64,000 nt of DNA from Propionispora vibrioides (GTDB lineage Bacteria; Bacillota; Negativicutes; Propionisporales; Propionisporaceae), in contig NZ_FODY01000027.1 in NCBI RefSeq assembly GCF_900110485.1, positions 1-64,000 on the forward strand, written 5' to 3'. Positions within the stretch are counted from its first letter, which is position 1, and each line of letters opens with the position of its first letter. This document shows, piece by piece, positions 35,773-45,950 of this stretch. Below the pieces are notes generated by a model. That model saw only the letters and a list, made by a program, of their open reading frames with translations, made no database searches and was not told the origin of the DNA. The position numbers were made by a program, and so were the translations under genes.

Positions 35773-37773
35773 CTAATAATCAGTTTTTTTTAGCTTAAAA
35801 TCAGGAGCCTTAGTCTTGATTAAATCTTGCCATGCTCTTGTAAGGTTTTTAGGTACAACAGTATACGGTGGTACGCCAATACACTTATACTCATTCTTTC
35901 CCAGTAGAGACTTGGCAGTAGCTATCGCTACCGCTATTCCTTGATCATAAGGTTGTTGTGAGCTTAATCCTATTACCATCTTTTTATTCGCCATATAAGA
36001 TGCGATTTCATAATCAAGGTCAGTGGTGGCTATTACAATATCGGTTCTACTCATATCTTCCAACGCTTTAATGGCTTTAAGTGCTGGCCGCTCCCAGGTA
36101 ATATAAAGCCCCTGAATTTCAGGATTTTCCTGGATCATTTGTTTACATACCTCATAAGCATTGTCGATTGCGAAAAAATCACGTTTTGCAACAATCTTAA
36201 TATTAGGGGAGCATTCTCTGAATGTTTGTTCCGCAAAAAAGTCACGTTGCTTTGTAGCAAAAAATGGAGTTCCGTGGGTAAGTAAACCAATTTTAACATT
36301 CTGCTGACTCTGGAAGTAATTTTTTAAAATCATAGCCGCATTTTGGCCATTTTCACGCTCATTGACGGATATCCAACAAGCGTAATCATCTTGTTTAAAG
36401 CCCTTCGGCATATTGTTAATGAAAATCAGTTTTGTTTTTTTGGAAATTTCCTTGAATTTTTCCGCAGTTTTTTCTTCATCGGTCGGAACTGCAATGATAG
36501 CATCCGGATGTTGCATCATTATGCCTTCTAACTGGGTTATTTGCAGTTCTGGATCAAAATGGGCATCCGCTACGGATAACAGCCAGATACCATAGCGGCT
36601 AAACACTTCTTTAATAGCTTTTTCATGGAGTTTTGTCCACTCGTCACCGCTATAATGGAAGGATAAAGCGACCTTATAATTACCTGCCCGCAGTTGGTCT
36701 ACTTCTTCTTCTGAAAGAACAACTTCTTCCGGATATACTGCTTTCTCGCCGAACGGACCACGAGCAATATTCTGGGTTGATTTACGTATAGTCAATTCCA
36801 TGGGAACAATATATGACGACGTTTGTTTTTTTGTATTTTGTATTTTGTCAATAAGAACAGTAACGGCCAGTTGTGCCATTTCATCGGTATTTTGCCGAAA
36901 TGTTGTAAGCGTTGGTGTGACTAAGTCACACCAACTATCATCGCCAAAGCCAATAATCGACATATCCTTGGGGCATTCCATACCCATGTCGGCGATAGTT
37001 TTCAAAAGCCGAAGCGTTAAAGTATTACCGCCAGCAAACCAAGCAGTAGGAACAGGATCTTCCTTCATTCGTTTTGAAATTTCAGTCTCAATTTCTTGGT
37101 TAAGATCAACCCGTAAGACTAGATCATCTGAATAGACAATATTATAATCCAGCAATGCCTTTTTATAGCCGGTAAGTCGATCCTCTATAGTAGTTAGTTT
37201 TTTCTTTTCTAATAGCAGTACGATATTTTCATGTCCGCACTTTATTAAATGCTCTGTTCCTTTATAGGCTGCTTGGACATTGTCAGAAAGAATATTATCG
37301 ACAGATATACCATACATGGTTCTTTCCAGGCAGACAAAAGGAAGGTGGGAAGCAATCAGTTTTTTGTATGTTGAAGCGTTTTCACTAACCGGTGTAATAA
37401 TTAATCCCGCAATCCGGCGATTTGACATAAGTTCTGTTATAATGTGTTTCTCTTGTTTGAGATCATCTTCCGAAAAATAGGTTGATAAAATAAACCCTGC
37501 ATCTGCTAGATAACGTGAGAGAAATGATACTAGCTGAAAATAAACAATGCTGTAAGTATTGGGGATTAAAAAAGCAATTTCGGACTGCTTTCCTACACGA
37601 TATTGCTTTATTTTTTTTATGTTCAGTTTTGCAGAATACCCTGTTTCTTCGATCACACGTTCTACTTTTTGAGTTAACTCAGGACTGACATACCTGGTTT
37701 TGTTAATTACATGTGAAACAGTGGCAATAGAAACATTTGCTTTCATTGCCACTTCTTTTATAGTTAAACTCAT
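35773..37773 (-). CDS. LacI-family regulator with two periplasmic-binding-like domains
   Basis: A 666-residue protein, about twice the usual LacI length. Residues 1-50 are the LacI helix-turn-helix (LTIKEVAMKANVSIATVSHVINKTRYVS) and 62-345 a standard LacI/PBP1 sensor. From about 365 there is a second complete PBP-like domain beginning VVLSEEEVDQLRAGNYKVAL. That opening closely parallels LSLTNEEIEQLKKGKYKVAF in the divergently encoded sugar-binding lipoprotein. The regulator seems to have captured a copy of the transporter's receptor. It probably represses the operon at 38109 and itself through TTTACGTAAA sites. Confidence 0.92.
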   Translation of the reverse strand: MSLTIKEVAMKANVSIATVSHVINKTRYVSPELTQKVERVIEETGYSAKLNIKKIKQYRVGKQSEIAFLIPNTYSIVYFQLVSFLSRYLADAGFILSTYFSEDDLKQEKHIITELMSNRRIAGLIITPVSENASTYKKLIASHLPFVCLERTMYGISVDNILSDNVQAAYKGTEHLIKCGHENIVLLLEKKKLTTIEDRLTGYKKALLDYNIVYSDDLVLRVDLNQEIETEISKRMKEDPVPTAWFAGGNTLTLRLLKTIADMGMECPKDMSIIGFGDDSWCDLVTPTLTTFRQNTDEMAQLAVTVLIDKIQNTKKQTSSYIVPMELTIRKSTQNIARGPFGEKAVYPEEVVLSEEEVDQLRAGNYKVALSFHYSGDEWTKLHEKAIKEVFSRYGIWLLSVADAHFDPELQITQLEGIMMQHPDAIIAVPTDEEKTAEKFKEISKKTKLIFINNMPKGFKQDDYACWISVNERENGQNAAMILKNYFQSQQNVKIGLLTHGTPFFATKQRDFFAEQTFRECSPNIKIVAKRDFFAIDNAYEVCKQMIQENPEIQGLYITWERPALKAIKALEDMSRTDIVIATTDLDYEIASYMANKKMVIGLSSQQPYDQGIAVAIATAKSLLGKNEYKCIGVPPYTVVPKNLTRAWQDLIKTKAPDFKLKKTDY

Positions 37774-37801
37774 GGCTTATAATAGCCCCTTTTCTTAAAT
37801 T

Positions 37802-38074
37802 TTTACGTAAATTATAACATTGAATAACGAATTTGAAAACTATATGTAAAGGTTCTTTTCCTGATTTGTGCATGAATGTTCTTGCTCTAGCTGGATAAAG
37901 GCTAAATGTATAAACCTAATTTATTATAGCATAATGCATATAAATTTGAAATATTAAAAAATGATTGACAATTCGCAAAATAACGTGTTATGATTTACGT
38001 AAATAAAACGGTAAATAAAATCATTTAAAGGATTAAGCGTAATTTTATAATAATACTAAAAAAAATTACGTAAA
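37802..38074. promoter_or_regulatory. Divergent LacI-type control region
   Basis: The operon promoter is TTGACA (37965-37970), 17 bp, TTATGA (37988-37993). TTTACGTAAA palindromes lie at 37802-37811 (just upstream of the lacI-type gene), 37994-38003 (immediately after -10) and, as ATTACGTAAA, at 38065-38074. Spacing would allow blockage and looping by a multimeric LacI protein. The 335-bp gap holds no gene. Confidence 0.82.
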
Positions 38075-38108
38075 AAATATATGCTGCATTTAAAGGGGGA
38101 TTTTATTA

Positions 38109-39131
38109 ATGTTAGCGGCAAAAATTCTTGGCAAAGAGTGTATCCAAGTGGTTGAAGAGGCAATCCCCAACCCGCGGAAGGGAGAAGTACTAATTCGGAT
38201 GAAAGCTTCTGCGCTGTGCCGGAGTGACTTACATCGTTATCATGGCGACAACTTGTTTGAAGATGACGATAATTCCAATATTACGCCGGGGCACGAACCT
38301 TGTGGGATTGTGGAAGCGCTAGGGGAAGGAGTGACGCAAGTTAAAATTGGCGACAGGGTCGCACTTTATCTTGGGCTTGGCTGCAGGCAATGCTCTCATT
38401 GTTTAAAGGGTGATATCATGCTGTGTCGCTCTTTTCGGTGTATTGGTTTTGCGGTAAATGGCGCTCATGCGGACTACATGACGATTCCCGAAGAAAATTG
38501 CTTATTACTGCCGGAGAAAATGGATTACATAACCGGTGCGTTGGCAACCGATGTTGGCGGTACTCTGTATACAGCCTGTAAACGGCTGCACGTTGACGGT
38601 ACAAAGACGGTTGTTATTGTCGGCTGTGGACCAATGGGCAGTGGTGGAATTTTAATGGCAAAGGGATTTGGCGCTAACGTCATTGCCGTAGATGTTGATG
38701 AAAAACGATTGGCTATGGCCCGAAGCCTGGGAGCCGACTACATAATTAATTCCAGTAAGGAAGATCCGGTGAAGAAGATTAAAGAACTAACAGAGGGAGG
38801 GGCGGATGCTGCAATTGTTTGCGCTGGGGGTACGATTCCACTTGCGACAGGCCTTAATGGTGTAAAGGCGAAAGGTTGTGTGGGGCTTATTGCTGAGTCG
38901 CAAAATGCCGCAATTGATCCGAGCAATCAGTTTATCCGGACGCTAGTAGAACTAAAAGGATGTTGGTACTTTAATCGCAGCGATTGGAAAGAAATTGCTG
39001 ATTTTATTATCCGGAAGGAAATTCCATTAAAAAAAATATCCAGTCATACATTTAATATATCTGAAGCTACAAAAGCATTTCCTTTATTTGATTCAGGTCA
39101 GACACAAAAAGTAGTATTTGTTTGGGATTGA
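38109..39131 (+). CDS. Zinc-type medium-chain alcohol/polyol dehydrogenase
   Basis: A 340-residue MDR enzyme. Catalytic zinc ligands are Cys37 (SALCRSDLHRY) and His-Glu in PGHEPCG (about 61-65). The structural zinc loop is CRQCSHCLKGDIMLC (about 92-106) and the Rossmann motif VGCGPMGSGG (about 170). It would oxidise a polyol or sugar alcohol with NAD(P). It is first gene of the operon behind AAAGGGGG; the ABC importer follows after 33 bp. Confidence 0.92.
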   Translation: MLAAKILGKECIQVVEEAIPNPRKGEVLIRMKASALCRSDLHRYHGDNLFEDDDNSNITPGHEPCGIVEALGEGVTQVKIGDRVALYLGLGCRQCSHCLKGDIMLCRSFRCIGFAVNGAHADYMTIPEENCLLLPEKMDYITGALATDVGGTLYTACKRLHVDGTKTVVIVGCGPMGSGGILMAKGFGANVIAVDVDEKRLAMARSLGADYIINSSKEDPVKKIKELTEGGADAAIVCAGGTIPLATGLNGVKAKGCVGLIAESQNAAIDPSNQFIRTLVELKGCWYFNRSDWKEIADFIIRKEIPLKKISSHTFNISEATKAFPLFDSGQTQKVVFVWD

Positions 39132-39164: not shown

Positions 39165-40328
39165 ATGTTGAAAAAAGTTCTTTTGATTGTTTTGTCCGTG
39201 CTTTTAGCAGCAACTGTAATGACCGGTTGCGGTAACACACCTTCTGAGAACAACAAACAGGTTCAGACTGAGTCAACAAAATCTTATCCTCCCATTGATT
39301 TAAATCCCCGGGAAGCATTAAGTGTAAGCCCTGAAGGTATTAAGGCTGTTGCTCCATCGGCGCTTTCCCTGACTAATGAAGAAATTGAGCAATTAAAGAA
39401 AGGTAAATATAAAGTTGCTTTTAGTTATCATACCTTAAGCGATCAATGTAATCAGCGTAAGTTGGCAGCGGCAAAAGAAGCTCTTGCCAGCTGGGGGATT
39501 GATGTAGTTTCAGTGACTGCTGCCGAGTTCAAAGCGGAAGCTCAGGTCTCGGATATTGAAAGCGCTCTGGCCCTTAAACCGGATGTATTATTTGTCATGC
39601 CTGTTGATCCCCATTCGGTTGCCGGTGCATTGGAAAAAGTAAAAGGAACGAAGACCAAAATTGTTTTTATGGAAAATGTAGCTGCCGGGTATAAAGCGGG
39701 TGTTGATTATTTAGGAAGTGCTAGTTCGGATAGCTATGGAAATGGAAAAGCGGCTGCCGATATTATGGCCCAGCAGTTAGGGTATAAGGGCAAGGTAGCG
39801 ATGATGTTCTATGATATGGATTACTTTGTGACCAACGAACGTGATCGCGGTTTTCGTGAAACTATAAAAAACAATTATCCCAATATAGAAATCGTGATGG
39901 AAGCGGGCTTTACCAATGTGAACAATACTGGTGCCGTTGCCGATGCCATTTTTGCCAAATATCCTGATATCAATGGAATTTATGCAACCTGGGATGTTCC
40001 GGCAGAAGGAGCTATTGCTTCAGCACGATCACTGGGACGTAATGATGTGATCATTACTACTTGCGATTTAGGCGATAACGCTGCCCGCTTAATTGCGGAA
40101 GACGGTATGATCAGAGGAACCGGTGCGCCGCGTTCGGCTGAACAGGGAAAAGCGGAAGCGTTAATTGCAGCCTATGGGTTGTTGGGTAAGAAACTGCCTT
40201 CCACTTTTGTGACACCGCCGGCATTACCGGTAGTAAAAGCAAATGTATTGGAAGCATATAAGATGTCATATGGAGTAGAAGCCCCGCAAGCATTAGTGGA
40301 TATTGTGAAGCAACATAAAAACAATTAA
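39165..40328 (+). CDS. Sugar ABC transporter substrate-binding lipoprotein
   Basis: A 387-residue protein with a lipoprotein signal (LLAATVMTGCGN; cleavage before Cys22). The class I PBP fold (Peripla_BP_4, RbsB-like) has KVAFSYHTLSDQCNQRKLAAAKEAL and DVLFVMPVDPHSVAGAL. It would bind a sugar or cyclitol outside the membrane for the RbsA/RbsC-type importer. Its N-terminal part is similar to the second sensor domain of the divergent LacI-type regulator. A stable hairpin after the gene probably sets higher expression than for the importer. Confidence 0.92.
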   Translation: MLKKVLLIVLSVLLAATVMTGCGNTPSENNKQVQTESTKSYPPIDLNPREALSVSPEGIKAVAPSALSLTNEEIEQLKKGKYKVAFSYHTLSDQCNQRKLAAAKEALASWGIDVVSVTAAEFKAEAQVSDIESALALKPDVLFVMPVDPHSVAGALEKVKGTKTKIVFMENVAAGYKAGVDYLGSASSDSYGNGKAAADIMAQQLGYKGKVAMMFYDMDYFVTNERDRGFRETIKNNYPNIEIVMEAGFTNVNNTGAVADAIFAKYPDINGIYATWDVPAEGAIASARSLGRNDVIITTCDLGDNAARLIAEDGMIRGTGAPRSAEQGKAEALIAAYGLLGKKLPSTFVTPPALPVVKANVLEAYKMSYGVEAPQALVDIVKQHKNN

Positions 40329-40406: not shown

Positions 40407-41906
40407 ATGATGTCTGACTATGTATTGTCGCTTGAGGGAATCCAAAAATCATTTGGGGGAGTTCCTGTATTAAAAGATGTCGACTTCAGACTTAAAAGAG
40501 GAAGTGTCCATGCGCTGGTTGGCGGGAATGGTGCGGGCAAATCGACGCTGATGAAGATACTTACAGGCATATATTCCAGTGATGCCGGAACAATCAGAAT
40601 AAATGGCAAAGAAACAAAAATCAATAAATTTAACGATGCGCAAAAGAATGGTATTAGTATAATTTTTCAAGAGCTAAGTTTGATTCCAACACTAAGTGTT
40701 ACAGAAAACATCTTTTTAAATAAAGAACTGAAAAAAGGTATTTTTTTGGATAAGAAAGAGATGCATAGGAAAGCGCAGTCGCTGATGAAAGAGCTTGGGA
40801 TAGATATTGATGTCGAGGAACGAATCGGAAATCTGAATGTTGGATATTGTCAACTAATTGAAATCGCTAAAGCATTAAGAAAAAACGCTTCCGTGCTGGT
40901 TATGGACGAGCCGACAGCTTCGTTGAGTGATAAAGAGACGGAAATTTTGTTTAAGATAATTAATAATCTAAGAGAAAGACAAGTTTCCATTGTATATATT
41001 TCTCATCGGATGAATGAGATTTTTAAAATAGCGGATGAAATATCGGTATTATGTAATGGGAAAATTGTAGCTAGCCAGCCAACTGCCGCGTACACACTTA
41101 AATCACTGATTCAATATATGATGGGAAACAGTGCGGGGAAAACAATGGAATGGAAAGAGCGTATAACACCGGTTGGGGAGAGCTCTTTGCTAGAAGTAAG
41201 TCATTTGAAAGTAGAAGATATACTAAAGGATGTCTCTTTTACTGTCAGACAGAGGGAAGTAGTAGGGGTGGCCGGATTGATGGGAAGCGGCAGAACAGAG
41301 CTGCTGGAGTGTCTTTTTGGCATAAGAAAATTAAGTGGCGGAGAAGTCAAACTGGAAGGCAAAACAGTCCGTTTCAGGAATATCCGTCAGGCAATTGAGT
41401 ATGGTGTGGCGTTAGTTCCCGAAGACAGACGGCGGCAAGGGTTAGTAATTCAGCACTTGTTAAAGGATAATCTGATTATAACGAACATGAAAACCGTTAA
41501 GCGAAGGGGGATCATTAGCAGTGAGCAGGTGAAAAAGCTTAGTGAGCGATGGATTCGGGAACTGGGAATAAAAACAGACGGTATTAATGTCAAAATGTTA
41601 AACCTCTCTGGCGGCAATCAGCAAAAATTGGTCATAGCAAAATGGCTGAACACCAAACCGAAATTACTGTTACTGGATGAGCCGACGGCTGGTGTAGATA
41701 TAGTTGCTAAAGGAGAAATTATTGACTTGGTAAGGCAATTTGTTAGTCAAAACCGGGGCGTAATATTTGTTTCTTCCGAACTCTCTGAAATGATGGCTAT
41801 TTGTGATCGGATTATTGTACTTAACAACGGTACGGTGACAGGCGTGTTGGAACATTGCGAAATTAAGTCCGAGGAGGTGCTGCAGCATGCAATCCAAAAC
41901 CAGTGA
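40407..41906 (+). CDS. Sugar ABC transporter ATP-binding protein (RbsA/MglA type)
   Basis: A 499-residue tandem ATPase. The first domain has Walker A GGNGAGKST (about 37-45) and VMDEPTASLSD. The second has the degenerate Walker A GLMGSGRTEL, the signature LSGGNQQK and LLLDEPTAGVD. That layout is typical of ribose/galactose-type importers. The start (ATG ATG at 40407/40410) follows GGAGGTG. Its end overlaps the permease start by 20 bp. Confidence 0.94.
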   Translation: MMSDYVLSLEGIQKSFGGVPVLKDVDFRLKRGSVHALVGGNGAGKSTLMKILTGIYSSDAGTIRINGKETKINKFNDAQKNGISIIFQELSLIPTLSVTENIFLNKELKKGIFLDKKEMHRKAQSLMKELGIDIDVEERIGNLNVGYCQLIEIAKALRKNASVLVMDEPTASLSDKETEILFKIINNLRERQVSIVYISHRMNEIFKIADEISVLCNGKIVASQPTAAYTLKSLIQYMMGNSAGKTMEWKERITPVGESSLLEVSHLKVEDILKDVSFTVRQREVVGVAGLMGSGRTELLECLFGIRKLSGGEVKLEGKTVRFRNIRQAIEYGVALVPEDRRRQGLVIQHLLKDNLIITNMKTVKRRGIISSEQVKKLSERWIRELGIKTDGINVKMLNLSGGNQQKLVIAKWLNTKPKLLLLDEPTAGVDIVAKGEIIDLVRQFVSQNRGVIFVSSELSEMMAICDRIIVLNNGTVTGVLEHCEIKSEEVLQHAIQNQ

Positions 41907-42930
41907 AACAGGCGCTGAAAAGATAATTTATCAAGGTTTGAAAAATTTGGATAAGTATATGGTGTATGTTATTTTCGTTATTGTCCTCATCTTTTTTGCC
42001 GTTTGGCTGGGTAGCAACTTTTTCTCGGTTCCGAATATCATGAACATCACGCGGCAAACAGCTATGATTTCAGTTATGGCTGTAGCCATGACTTTTGTAA
42101 TCGCTGCGGGTCAAATTGATTTATCGGTAGGAGCTATAGTAGCTCTATCTTCGCTGCTTGCTGCTTTGATTTTGCAGGCAACGAACAATGTCATTTTGGC
42201 AGTAACAAGCAGTTTAATCCTTGGGGCATTCATTGGAGCGGTTAATGGCTTTTTAACCACTATAGTAAGAATTCCGTCTTTTTTAACTACACTAGGAATG
42301 TTGTGTTCTGTACAAGGTGTTGCAATGTGGCTAACAGATACTAAAGCTGTTCCAATTATGAATAAAACTTTTAATTTCATTTTTGGTATGGGAATGATTT
42401 TTGGTGTTCCGATTTTGTTGTTTTGGGCAATGATTGCTTTGCTGATCGGACATTTCGCACTAAAATATTTGCCCTATGGGAAGAAGGTTCTGGCTATTGG
42501 GGGAAATTCCATTTCAGCAGCCTATTCGGGAATTAACATCCATAAGATTACCATTCTTGTTATGACTTTCAGTGGAATGGCAGCAGCCTTTGCCGGCCTT
42601 CTTTATTCCGGCAGGACTCAAACCGCCCGTTATACATACGGAATAGGTGATGAACTGTCGGTGATTGCAGCAGTGGTTTTAGGTGGAACTTCCATGTCCG
42701 GAGGAACCGGGAATATTATTGGAGCCGTTATTGGGTCGTTGCTGCTGGGAATTATAAATAATGGACTTATAATCGGGGGCCTAAATGTCAGCCAGCAGAT
42801 GATGGTGCGCGGTGCGATTATAATAATCGCAGTTGCTTTGAACAATGTTGAGTATCTGAAACAAAATATTGAATACATCAAAAGGAATATTAAAGAACTA
42901 AAAAAAAATCAGATTAGTCGTTTTCAGTAA
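41887..42930 (+). CDS. Sugar ABC transporter permease (RbsC type)
   Basis: A 347-residue protein with eight to ten membrane spans and BPD_transp_2 features (FVIAAGQIDLSVGAIVALSS and VIAAVVLGGTSMSGGTGNIIG). It overlaps the ATPase gene (AGGAGGTGCTGCAG before ATG 41887), so translation is coupled. It forms the channel for the sugar bound by the lipoprotein. Confidence 0.94.
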   Translation: MQSKTSETGAEKIIYQGLKNLDKYMVYVIFVIVLIFFAVWLGSNFFSVPNIMNITRQTAMISVMAVAMTFVIAAGQIDLSVGAIVALSSLLAALILQATNNVILAVTSSLILGAFIGAVNGFLTTIVRIPSFLTTLGMLCSVQGVAMWLTDTKAVPIMNKTFNFIFGMGMIFGVPILLFWAMIALLIGHFALKYLPYGKKVLAIGGNSISAAYSGINIHKITILVMTFSGMAAAFAGLLYSGRTQTARYTYGIGDELSVIAAVVLGGTSMSGGTGNIIGAVIGSLLLGIINNGLIIGGLNVSQQMMVRGAIIIIAVALNNVEYLKQNIEYIKRNIKELKKNQISRFQ

Positions 42931-42960: not shown

Positions 42961-43797
42961 ATGAAATATTCATTTAACACATGGGCGTATAGCAGTTTTC
43001 CCTGCTGGGTTCCCGCTTATCCGCTGAAAGACACAATTGAACGATTAGCCCGGATTGGCTATGACGCTATTGAACTAGGCTGCGCATCGCCGCATGCCTG
43101 GCCTTATTTTCTGGATGCTGCTAAACGTAAAGAAATTAATAAATGGTTAAAAGACAGTAATATTGTGTTTTCTTCCTTGCTCCCCGCTCCGGGCGGCGGA
43201 CCGGGCGCCAATATTGCTTCTGCCATGAAAGAAGAGCGGGAATGGTCCGTGCAGTATGTAAAGGACGTAATTGATATGGCGGATGATTTTAACTGTCATA
43301 CTGTGCTCATTGTATGTGGTTGGTATATTTATGGGACCAAACAGGAAGAGGCGTGGAAATATTCGCGGGAAAGTATTCGTAATATTGCGGAATACGCGCG
43401 GCGAAAAGGTACCCGGCTGTGCCTTGAACCAACGCCAACGGACAGCAATCTGGTTGAAACAGCGGATGATGCACTGATTATGAAAGACCAGGTTGGTATG
43501 GACAATGTTTTCGTTATGTTTGATACGGCGCATGCTTTATACCGCAATGAACCGCCGACAGACTACATTTACCGCATGGGAAATGATCTGAAACATGTTC
43601 ATCTGACCGATTATGACAGAAAAGCTCCTGGCACCGGCGGATGTGATTTTGTGGCAATTATGCAGGCATTAAAGGATGTCGATTATGCTGGGTACGTAAC
43701 CATGGAAACAGGTTTTCCTACGAGGGGGATTCACCCGGATTCCTGTGCCAGAATTTCATTAGAAAATCTAAAGGCCATTGAAGGTACGCTTAAATAA
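42961..43797 (+). CDS. Sugar phosphate isomerase/epimerase-like TIM barrel 1
   Basis: A 278-residue protein of the xylose-isomerase-like (AP_endonuc_2) family. It opens KYSFNTWAYSSFPCWVPAYP; metal-site-type residues are CLEPTPT (Glu), FDTAH (Asp/His), HVHLTDYD and the C-terminal METG. It would isomerise, epimerise or dehydrate a keto-sugar or inositol intermediate. RBS GGGGGAAAG; it follows the permease by 30 bp in the same operon. Confidence 0.88.
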   Translation: MKYSFNTWAYSSFPCWVPAYPLKDTIERLARIGYDAIELGCASPHAWPYFLDAAKRKEINKWLKDSNIVFSSLLPAPGGGPGANIASAMKEEREWSVQYVKDVIDMADDFNCHTVLIVCGWYIYGTKQEEAWKYSRESIRNIAEYARRKGTRLCLEPTPTDSNLVETADDALIMKDQVGMDNVFVMFDTAHALYRNEPPTDYIYRMGNDLKHVHLTDYDRKAPGTGGCDFVAIMQALKDVDYAGYVTMETGFPTRGIHPDSCARISLENLKAIEGTLK

Positions 43798-43908
43798 AGG
43801 CTTTTTCACAATACGAAAGAAAGTAAAGCCAACCATGCAGGCAGAGCCAAAAGGTTTATAACCAATACTTCTTATTGAATGCAACGATGTAAAGGGAGAG
43901 AACTGATT

Positions 43909-44940
43909 ATGATTAAAGTAGGTATTATTGGCTGTGGTAAAATTGCGCAGGTGCGTCATTTGCCCGAATATATGGATAATAAAAACGTAAATATTGCCGG
44001 ATTGTATGATTTGTGCTATTCACGGGCCACGGAAATGGCCGAAAAATATGGGGGGAAAGTTTATGAATCATATCAGCAATTATTAGCTGATCCGACGATT
44101 GAGGCTGTCAGTGTTTGTGCCGCTAATGCCGTTCATTGCGAAATTACAGTAGCCGCATTGGAAAACGGCAAACATGTTCTTTGTGAGAAGCCAATGGCGA
44201 CTACACTGGATGAATGTAAAAGAATGGTTGCTGCCGCGGAAAAGACGGGAAAGTTTTTGATGATTGGCCATAATCAACGTCTTACCAAGACACATGCTAT
44301 GGCCCGACGTTTAATTCAGGAGGGTATGATTGGCCATATTATTACGTTTAGGACCGTTTTTGGACATGGCGGACCGGAAACCTGGGCAATCGACAGCAAA
44401 AATGTCTGGTTTTTTGATAAAAAAACAGCAGTGTTTGGTGCTATGGCAGATCTTGGAATTCATAAGACAGATTTAATTCAATTTTTAACTGGGGAGAAAA
44501 TCTCGGAAGTGACTGCCTATTTGGGTACATTGGACAAAAAAACAGCGGATGGACAGTTTATTGGCGTAGATGATAATGCGATTTGCATTTATCAAATGTC
44601 TGGCGGAGCCATAGGAACCATGACGGCAAGCTGGAACTACTACGGGGCGGAGGATAATTCGACGATTCTTTATGGTACCAAGGGAATTATGCGTCTTTAT
44701 GATGACCCGCACTATTCTATAATTATCGAACTCAAAACCGGTGAGAAGATTCATTATGAGGTAGATCAGATACAAACGAATGATAAACAGACAAAATCCG
44801 GTATTATTGATTTATGGGTGGATTGCCTGGTAAATAATACGGCGCCGGAAATATCCGGAGCTGAAGCGCTGAGCGCCATGAAAGCAGTATTTGCTGCAAT
44901 AGAATCATCAAACACCGGGAAAAGAGTGAAAATTGATTAA
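43909..44940 (+). CDS. Gfo/Idh/MocA-family oxidoreductase
   Basis: A 343-residue NAD(P)-dependent sugar or cyclitol dehydrogenase. Start ATG 43909 (MIKVGIIGCGKIAQ) after GGGAGAG; the longer frame from 43879 is rejected. It has Rossmann GIIGCGKIA, the family motif CEKPMATT (about 93) and the C-terminal FGAMADLGIHKTDL segment with its catalytic-type Asp/His. In this operon it probably oxidises or reduces C-3 or C-1 of the imported sugar. Confidence 0.92.
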   Translation: MIKVGIIGCGKIAQVRHLPEYMDNKNVNIAGLYDLCYSRATEMAEKYGGKVYESYQQLLADPTIEAVSVCAANAVHCEITVAALENGKHVLCEKPMATTLDECKRMVAAAEKTGKFLMIGHNQRLTKTHAMARRLIQEGMIGHIITFRTVFGHGGPETWAIDSKNVWFFDKKTAVFGAMADLGIHKTDLIQFLTGEKISEVTAYLGTLDKKTADGQFIGVDDNAICIYQMSGGAIGTMTASWNYYGAEDNSTILYGTKGIMRLYDDPHYSIIIELKTGEKIHYEVDQIQTNDKQTKSGIIDLWVDCLVNNTAPEISGAEALSAMKAVFAAIESSNTGKRVKID

Positions 44941-44957: not shown

Positions 44958-45950
44958 ATGACACGGCCAGTAACTTTGGCATCGGGGCAATTTGGTGACC
45001 TTTCCCTGGAAAAGCTATGCGCTTTAGCACAAAAATCAGGTTATGAGGGACTGGAACTGGCGACCCATGCTCATTTTGATGTAAACCGGGCTTTGAATGA
45101 CGAAACATATATAGCCTACGTACAAGATACATTGAAAAAATATAACCTAAAATGCTGGGCGATTTCTGCTCATCTTGCAGGGCAGTGTGTAGGCGATAAC
45201 TGGGATCGGCGTCTGGATAATTTTGCTCCAAAACATATTTCCGGGCAGCCGGAAAAGATTCGTATATGGGCTATCGAAGAAATGAAGCGTACCGCTCTGG
45301 CTGCAAGAAAAATGGATGTTTTGGTAATTAACGGTTTTTTAGGTTCCCCAATTTGGGCATGGTGGTATTCTTACCCACAGACTACGCCGGAAATGGTAGA
45401 AGCTGGGTTTCATAAAATTTATGATCTATGGACACCAATTTTTGATGTCTTTGATGAACAGGAGATTCGTTTTGCCTTAGAGGTCCATCCTACCGAAATT
45501 GCGTTTGATTACTATTCAACGGAACGTTTGTTGGAAAAGTTTCACTATCGTCCTACACTAGGTTTGAATTATGATCCCAGTCATCTGGTTTGGCAAGGCG
45601 TAAATGAACTGACATTTCTGCGGGATTTTGCCAACCGCATCTATCATGTGCATATGAAGGATGTCAAGCTGCAGCGTAATGAAAAGGCCGGGATACTGGG
45701 ATCGCATCTGGAGTTTGGTGATACTCGCCGGGCCTGGAATTTTGTTTCAGTCGGGCATGGGAATGTTGATTTTGATGGTATTATCAGGGAACTCAACCAA
45801 ATAGGTTATGAAGGACCGTTATCCGTAGAGTGGGAAGATTCGGGCATGAAGCGTGAATTTGGTGCGGCAGAGGCATGCGCTTATGTAAGGAAAATTAATT
45901 TTTCTCCGTCGCATATTGCGTTTGATGCAGCACTTAAAGCGGATAATTGA
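44958..45950 (+). CDS. Sugar phosphate isomerase/epimerase-like TIM barrel 2
   Basis: A 330-residue xylose-isomerase-like protein: EVHPTEIAFD (Glu), NYDPSHLVWQG (Asp/His), YHVHMKDVKL (His) and SVEWEDSGM (Glu) supply the usual metal site. It differs clearly from barrel 1, and such pairs beside Gfo/Idh/MocA proteins are common in keto-glycoside and cyclitol catabolism. It is last gene of the operon; its terminator carries the copied tail at 45994. Confidence 0.88.
   Translation: MTRPVTLASGQFGDLSLEKLCALAQKSGYEGLELATHAHFDVNRALNDETYIAYVQDTLKKYNLKCWAISAHLAGQCVGDNWDRRLDNFAPKHISGQPEKIRIWAIEEMKRTALAARKMDVLVINGFLGSPIWAWWYSYPQTTPEMVEAGFHKIYDLWTPIFDVFDEQEIRFALEVHPTEIAFDYYSTERLLEKFHYRPTLGLNYDPSHLVWQGVNELTFLRDFANRIYHVHMKDVKLQRNEKAGILGSHLEFGDTRRAWNFVSVGHGNVDFDGIIRELNQIGYEGPLSVEWEDSGMKREFGAAEACAYVRKINFSPSHIAFDAALKADN

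Follow-up and report, generated by a model that had tools for sequence, protein, structure and literature searches.

LacI/GalR repressors, such as PurR, CcpA and RbsR, control sugar operons. They have an N-terminal LacI helix-turn-helix (HTH) and a PBP-like core, and they bind palindromes with a central CG near promoters. LacI cores and transport receptors have a common ancestor. Here we describe a regulator of Propionispora vibrioides that appears to share all of these features. It is encoded within a stretch of 64,000 nucleotides, which we refer to as the window. Unlike the described repressors, the regulator has a C-terminal receptor-derived PBP domain, has lost core ligand residues and has an apparently poorly conserved hinge. 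The added domain, D2, shares its fold, sugar-site residues and GPxGE N-terminal strap with CUT2 receptors (RbsB-type, Peripla_BP_4). Conversely, D2 lacks a signal peptide or lipobox, has a predicted cytoplasmic location, is fused to a DNA-binding protein and has NER in place of DNY. The tandem Venus-flytrap sensor BvgS also places two tandem PBP-fold domains in one signalling protein, although this is an analogy only and not shared membership of a family; BvgS is a membrane histidine kinase and its domains are periplasmic. Nicotinate-type modulators of BvgS have been reported for VFT2 only (PMC4352136). A levoglucosan-type cluster of Bacillus smithii encodes a LacI regulator, a receptor, an ABC transporter, TIM-barrel isomerase-like enzymes and a Gfo/Idh/MocA oxidoreductase (PMC7676230). 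All of these gene types are also found at the window locus, which differs in having one Gfo/Idh/MocA gene plus a zinc dehydrogenase.

The fusion regulator gene is one open frame of 666 codons (35773..37773, minus strand) encoding a protein of 666 aa. The LacI HTH occupies residues 1-47 (37633..37773, minus strand), with a Pfam match at residues 4-47 (PF00356, 3.7e-15). It is followed by D1, a LacI-type PBP core at residues 62-336 (36766..37590, minus strand), where Peripla_BP_1/3 matches cover residues 66-333 (PF13377/PF00532). The linker and receptor N-terminal strap, at residues 337-366 (36676..36765, minus strand), carry the GPxGE motif at the fusion boundary. D2 forms the remainder of the protein (residues 367-666; 35776..36675, minus strand) and matches Peripla_BP_4 at residues 368-625 (2.8e-34). 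An AlphaFold model, built from 21 fusion sequences, had a mean pLDDT of 87 and a pTM of 0.70. In the model, residues 62-337 resemble the LacI-family cores 2qu7, CcpA and RbsR (VIA-align, Z ~30-33), and residues ~363-661 resemble the sugar receptors 4ywh, 4kq9 and the RbsB-type 2ioy (Z ~30-31). The original prediction was of a complete LacI protein plus a second PBP domain. Pfam, the predicted structure, with its LacI-like core and receptor-like domain, and 28 homologous fusions from other organisms all agree with this. The D1-D2 junction contains no hydrophobic segment, signal peptide or lipobox, and the linker, read by eye, is polar. Since neither a signal nor a membrane segment precedes D2, the domain is predicted to reside in the cytoplasm. 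Lacking an export signal, D2 is best described as derived from a transport receptor and not as a working one.

Recovery of the 28 further fusions depended on the query. A single-sequence scan (P0001) returned nothing from genome contigs and nothing from viral contigs. Prior to use of a subfamily alignment, searches of the phylum (398 genomes), of the class (300 genomes) and of 60 relatives gave no further fusion, and a plasmid tblastn search identified only separate, adjacent LacI and receptor genes. Two candidates were rejected. A LacI/receptor double match in the relative G008 came from separate genes, and a 628-aa match in G014 (L037:3067-4953) was a double receptor protein. The latter is lipoprotein-like, has two tandem receptor domains and is encoded beside a two-component system. 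The family surfaced only once the subfamily alignment (A1) was used as the query, which yielded 20 further fusions. The taxa represented are Gracilibacillus, Faecalicatena, Lactonifactor, Egerieimonas, Paenibacillus, Cohnella, Clostridium magnum, Clostridiales Family XIII, Mageeibacillus, Sinobaca, Halobacillus, Neobacillus, Enterococcus raffinosus and two Treponema. A profile made from the fusions added eight more non-redundant examples. With the window protein the total is 29 fusions, which are similar in length and come from Bacillota and Spirochaetota. They are rare and scattered: a fusion occurs in 3 of 398 genomes from Bacilli and in 6 of 299 from the Faecalicatena family. Proteins combining LacI with a receptor-type PBP are thus a conserved, apparently undescribed family, and a variant of the LacI family. 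In the part of the literature covered by our queries, of which several were narrow, no paper was found that describes a receptor-type PBP domain added to a LacI protein; the architecture may be listed in protein databases. Two fusion genes occur in tandem in Faecalicatena, Lactonifactor and Cohnella. Such tandem LacI-PBP-PBP genes lie ahead of the operon at L080:6957-11112, L081:5935-10223 and L087:4748-9005, and heterodimers would be possible.

In the window, the fusion gene faces away from an operon on the plus strand. The first gene encodes a zinc-dependent alcohol dehydrogenase-like protein (38109..39131; Pfam ADH_N and ADH_zinc_N). The genes that follow encode the lipoprotein sugar receptor (SBP) of an ABC transporter (39165..40328), a CUT2-type sugar ABC ATPase (40407..41906), a CUT2-type sugar permease (41887..42930), a sugar isomerase/epimerase-like TIM barrel (42961..43797; AP_endonuc_2), a Gfo/Idh/MocA oxidoreductase (43879..44940) and a second such TIM barrel (44958..45950). 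The lipoprotein gene had been called divergent from the regulator. This holds for its orientation, but the dehydrogenase gene intervenes between the two. In gene content the operon resembles oxidation-based glycoside or anhydrosugar pathways. Assignment as a levoglucosan utilisation (lgd) operon was not supported; the Gfo/Idh/MocA protein scores 139.6 against a cut-off of 650 (NF052479, LgdA). The nearest sequences to the operon are from Lachnospiraceae and allies (73-76% identity for the dehydrogenase, 64-71% for the receptor and 75% for the second TIM barrel), and two genomes of the same genus contain no comparable match to the fusion or to the lipoprotein receptor. Together, these observations suggest that the operon and the fusion were acquired horizontally.

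Between the regulator and the operon, TTACGTAA occurs at positions 37803, 37995 and 38066, each within a candidate operator. Operator 1, TTTTACGTAAAT (37801..37812), overlaps the -10 region of the predicted fusion-gene promoter, TTTTCA-17-TATAAT (37811..37839, minus strand), which runs directly into it. Operator 2, ATTTACGTAAAT (37993..38004), is centred at ~-2 of the predicted operon start site, and the predicted operon promoter, TTGACA-18-TATGAT (37965..37994, plus strand; 11/12, with TG before the -10), runs directly into it. Both promoters are consensus matches only. Operator 3, AATTACGTAAAA (38064..38075), lies 43 bases ahead of the first operon gene. Across 18 fusion loci we counted 37 copies of TTACGTAA, versus 2.0 expected. 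Conversely, 60 control loci, which have related receptors and in which no fusion was found, contained 9 copies versus 10.8 expected. Because the motif had been defined on the first fusion loci, we counted it afresh in eight new ones; these contained 19 copies versus 0.42 expected. Nearly all copies are intergenic and just upstream of fusion, dehydrogenase, receptor or TIM-barrel genes. In six cases, both window promoters among them, the operator centre is at ~-2 of the predicted start site. Hence, as computed from sequence, the regulator has a palindromic operator, TTTACGTAAA, with a central CG and near a regulated promoter, as LacI/GalR proteins do, and its placement over predicted promoters appears to be that of a repressor's site. 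Genome-wide, WTTTACGTAAAW was present at seven places only, two of them in the window region, versus five for a reversed control. A wider regulon is not supported by these counts.

Our preferred explanation, to which we give a probability of roughly 0.6, is that the protein is a LacI-family repressor in which effector sensing has shifted from its own core to the appended receptor domain. The HTH would bind the operators over two predicted promoters, one for its own gene and one for the divergent operon of sugar uptake and catabolism, and would thereby repress both gene and operon. D2, cytoplasmic and descended from a CUT2 transport receptor, would bind an intracellular sugar or sugar derivative. 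We infer that ligand would close D2, that this would alter the D1 dimer and the hinge, and that the operators would then be released. D1, having presumably lost sugar binding, would act mainly as a dimerisation scaffold and transmission element.

The two PBP domains differ in conservation. Mean pairwise identity across the 29 fusions is 60% for the HTH, 29% for D1, 45% for the linker and 51% for D2. The cores of ordinary LacI proteins from these data, with a mean identity of 29%, are about as diverse as D1, so the low identity of D1 is not by itself proof of decay. It could instead mean diversifying specificity, which would count against a shift of sensing to D2. Loss of specific residues is, among the sequence comparisons, the stronger point. 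The canonical ligand Asp, D275 in PurR, is retained by 21 of 23 ordinary LacI proteins but by only 1 of 29 fusions, and the window protein has G277 at this position. At the PurR N247 position, Asn is present in 20/23 ordinary proteins versus 7/29 fusions. Arg at the R196 position (19/23 versus 13/29) and Gln at the Q292 position (19/23 versus 16/29) are better retained. Thus, the fusion cores do not have the typical LacI effector site, D275 being lost from 28/29 and N247 from 22/29. The PurR L54 hinge lever is Leu in 21/23 ordinary LacI proteins and variable in the fusions, for which the hinge alignment is gapped and the pLDDT is <50.

By contrast, the D2 pocket is nearly invariant. Sequence alignment with the ribose receptor 2ioy, not coordinates, was used to place its positions, of which R510, W560, D585 and Q606 correspond to the sugar site of RbsB. 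R510, W560 and Q606 are found in 29/29 fusions and D585 in 28/29. H373, Y374 and F533 are likewise present in every fusion, and W379 in 28/29. Hence, D2 combines a Peripla_BP_4 domain with the sugar-site residues of a receptor. D2 and receptors are 69% identical at pocket positions and 31% elsewhere, a somewhat favourable contrast because the positions were partly picked for known conservation.

The original prediction was that the regulator may read either two ligands or one ligand twice. In such a dual-input regulator D1 and D2 would each bind a ligand, for example an imported sugar and a pathway intermediate, to give AND-type or extended-range control. Good folds are predicted for both PBP domains, the variation of D1 among members fits differing specificities, and Arg or Asn persists at ligand positions in some members. 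The window D1 retains R199 and Q294 and, with its predicted fold intact, some ligand binding by D1 is possible; these points also weigh against our preferred explanation. However, the ligand-contacting Asp of PurR and LacI is absent from all but one of the fusions and the other canonical positions are eroded, whereas the D2 pocket is kept. An AND gate is therefore possible but less supported than D2 as the working sensor, and we consider dual input unlikely. It is more doubtful still that D1 remains the sensor, with D2 serving as a partner-binding or assembly domain or as an intracellular sugar buffer. Seven positions are fixed differently in D2 and in receptors, notably the change of DNY to NER at 471-473, and these family-specific changes could mark a new protein contact. 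A purely structural role would not need the ligand-site residues, yet these are among the best-kept of D2, and the eroded site is that of D1.

If D2 is the sensor, its ligand may not be that of the transporter. At pocket positions that are Y, W and Q in D2 and in most of the subfamily, the window lipoprotein and its three nearest relatives carry T, C and P, a hint that the ligand of the lipoprotein group has changed. Because the pockets of D2 and the lipoprotein differ at several positions, D2 may bind another compound here, and the effector need not be the imported solute; the proposal that one ligand is read twice loses ground accordingly. Matching between the pockets of D2 and of the receptor at the same locus was not found, since 700 of 2000 shuffles scored as high. 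Hence, there was no sign that D2 tracks the ligand of its own receptor.

D2 had also been predicted to be related to the transporter's receptor. The opening motifs quoted for D2 and the lipoprotein are correct, and the lipoprotein is the best match to D2 in the genome (32% identity, E 1e-47; 23-27%, E 1e-7 for other receptors). The two belong to the same receptor subfamily. However, D2 is no nearer to the lipoprotein (30%) than to other receptors of that subfamily (27-34%), although it keeps the ligand-site residues. Trees built on 66-68 receptor domains placed every fusion D2 in one clade (SH-aLRT 99-100), within which the window D2 lies beside that of Gracilibacillus. The window lipoprotein grouped with Lachnospiraceae-type receptors (71% identity), away from the D2 clade. 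Forcing D2 and the lipoprotein to be sisters cost 372 units of lnL and was rejected by the AU test (p 8e-5). The single D2 clade, the AU rejection and the 27-34% identities are most simply explained by one ancient fusion, followed by inheritance and spread, and not by a recent local duplication. The original prediction of a recent or fixed duplication thus survives in its second form only: the fusion is fixed, in 29 proteins, but is not a recent copy of the neighbouring receptor. Had the lipoprotein gene of the operon been duplicated recently and the copy fused to the LacI regulator, the shared subfamily, the shared operon and the best match in the genome would be accounted for. This scenario is refuted by the tree, in which one fusion clade covers Bacillota and Spirochaetota, and D2s are up to 72% identical to each other versus about 30% to the lipoprotein; we regard it as very improbable. 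Nor is D2 always kin to the local receptor: at L083, L192 and L194 the transporter encoded nearby has a receptor of a different kind. At these loci the fusion lies beside a different CUT2 transporter, and the operon includes a GH32 gene in L192 and a PfkB kinase in L194; fructoside-type substrates are suggested for L192 and L194. Least probable of all, an assembly error or lost stop codon that joined adjacent genes, of the kind found separate in Metabacillus, is refuted by the 28 homologous fusions, which share the boundary and the conserved linker motif, and by a junction without a signal peptide.

Receptors of the D2 subfamily also occur on or beside other regulators. Three loci (L094:1977-4562, L130:2656-5667 and L148:1333-4248) encode hybrid kinases with a HisKA-HATPase-receiver arrangement and a C-terminal receptor domain of this subfamily. 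All three look soluble, and those of L130 and L148 also carry PAS domains (Pfam). Their receptor domains are joined at GPxGE, as in the LacI fusions, and are nested among transport receptors (96-98); kinase recruitment was therefore independent of the LacI fusion. Four rhizobial loci carry a receptor gene of this subfamily that lacks a signal peptide and directly adjoins a ROK regulator gene (L070:4405-5475, L146:4181-5194, L150:4307-5356 and L156:4230-5228, all minus strand). In at least two of these loci the receptor gene is divergent from a receptor/ABC operon. The pairing of ROK with a signal-less receptor looks like a two-gene version of the LacI fusion. The ROK-linked and LacI-fused forms may share an origin (support 88, on long branches). 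We give even odds to the broader view that a single CUT2 receptor subfamily serves as a portable module for sensing sugars in the cytoplasm, attached through the GPxGE boundary to unrelated regulators (LacI proteins and hybrid kinases) and placed as a separate gene beside ROK, and that in the LacI case it displaced the native core sensor.

The fusion family returns a transport-type receptor to a LacI protein, whose original sensor then appears to decay. It is a natural experiment in which an allosteric repressor swaps its input domain and keeps its DNA site. The TTTACGTAAA operator and the clear pocket residues make the role of D2 as sensor directly testable. Addition of receptor domains is a suggested route to repressors with new ligands. 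Since receptors also occur on hybrid kinases and next to ROK proteins, the principle may be more general: transport receptors would be reused as cytoplasmic sensors of imports.
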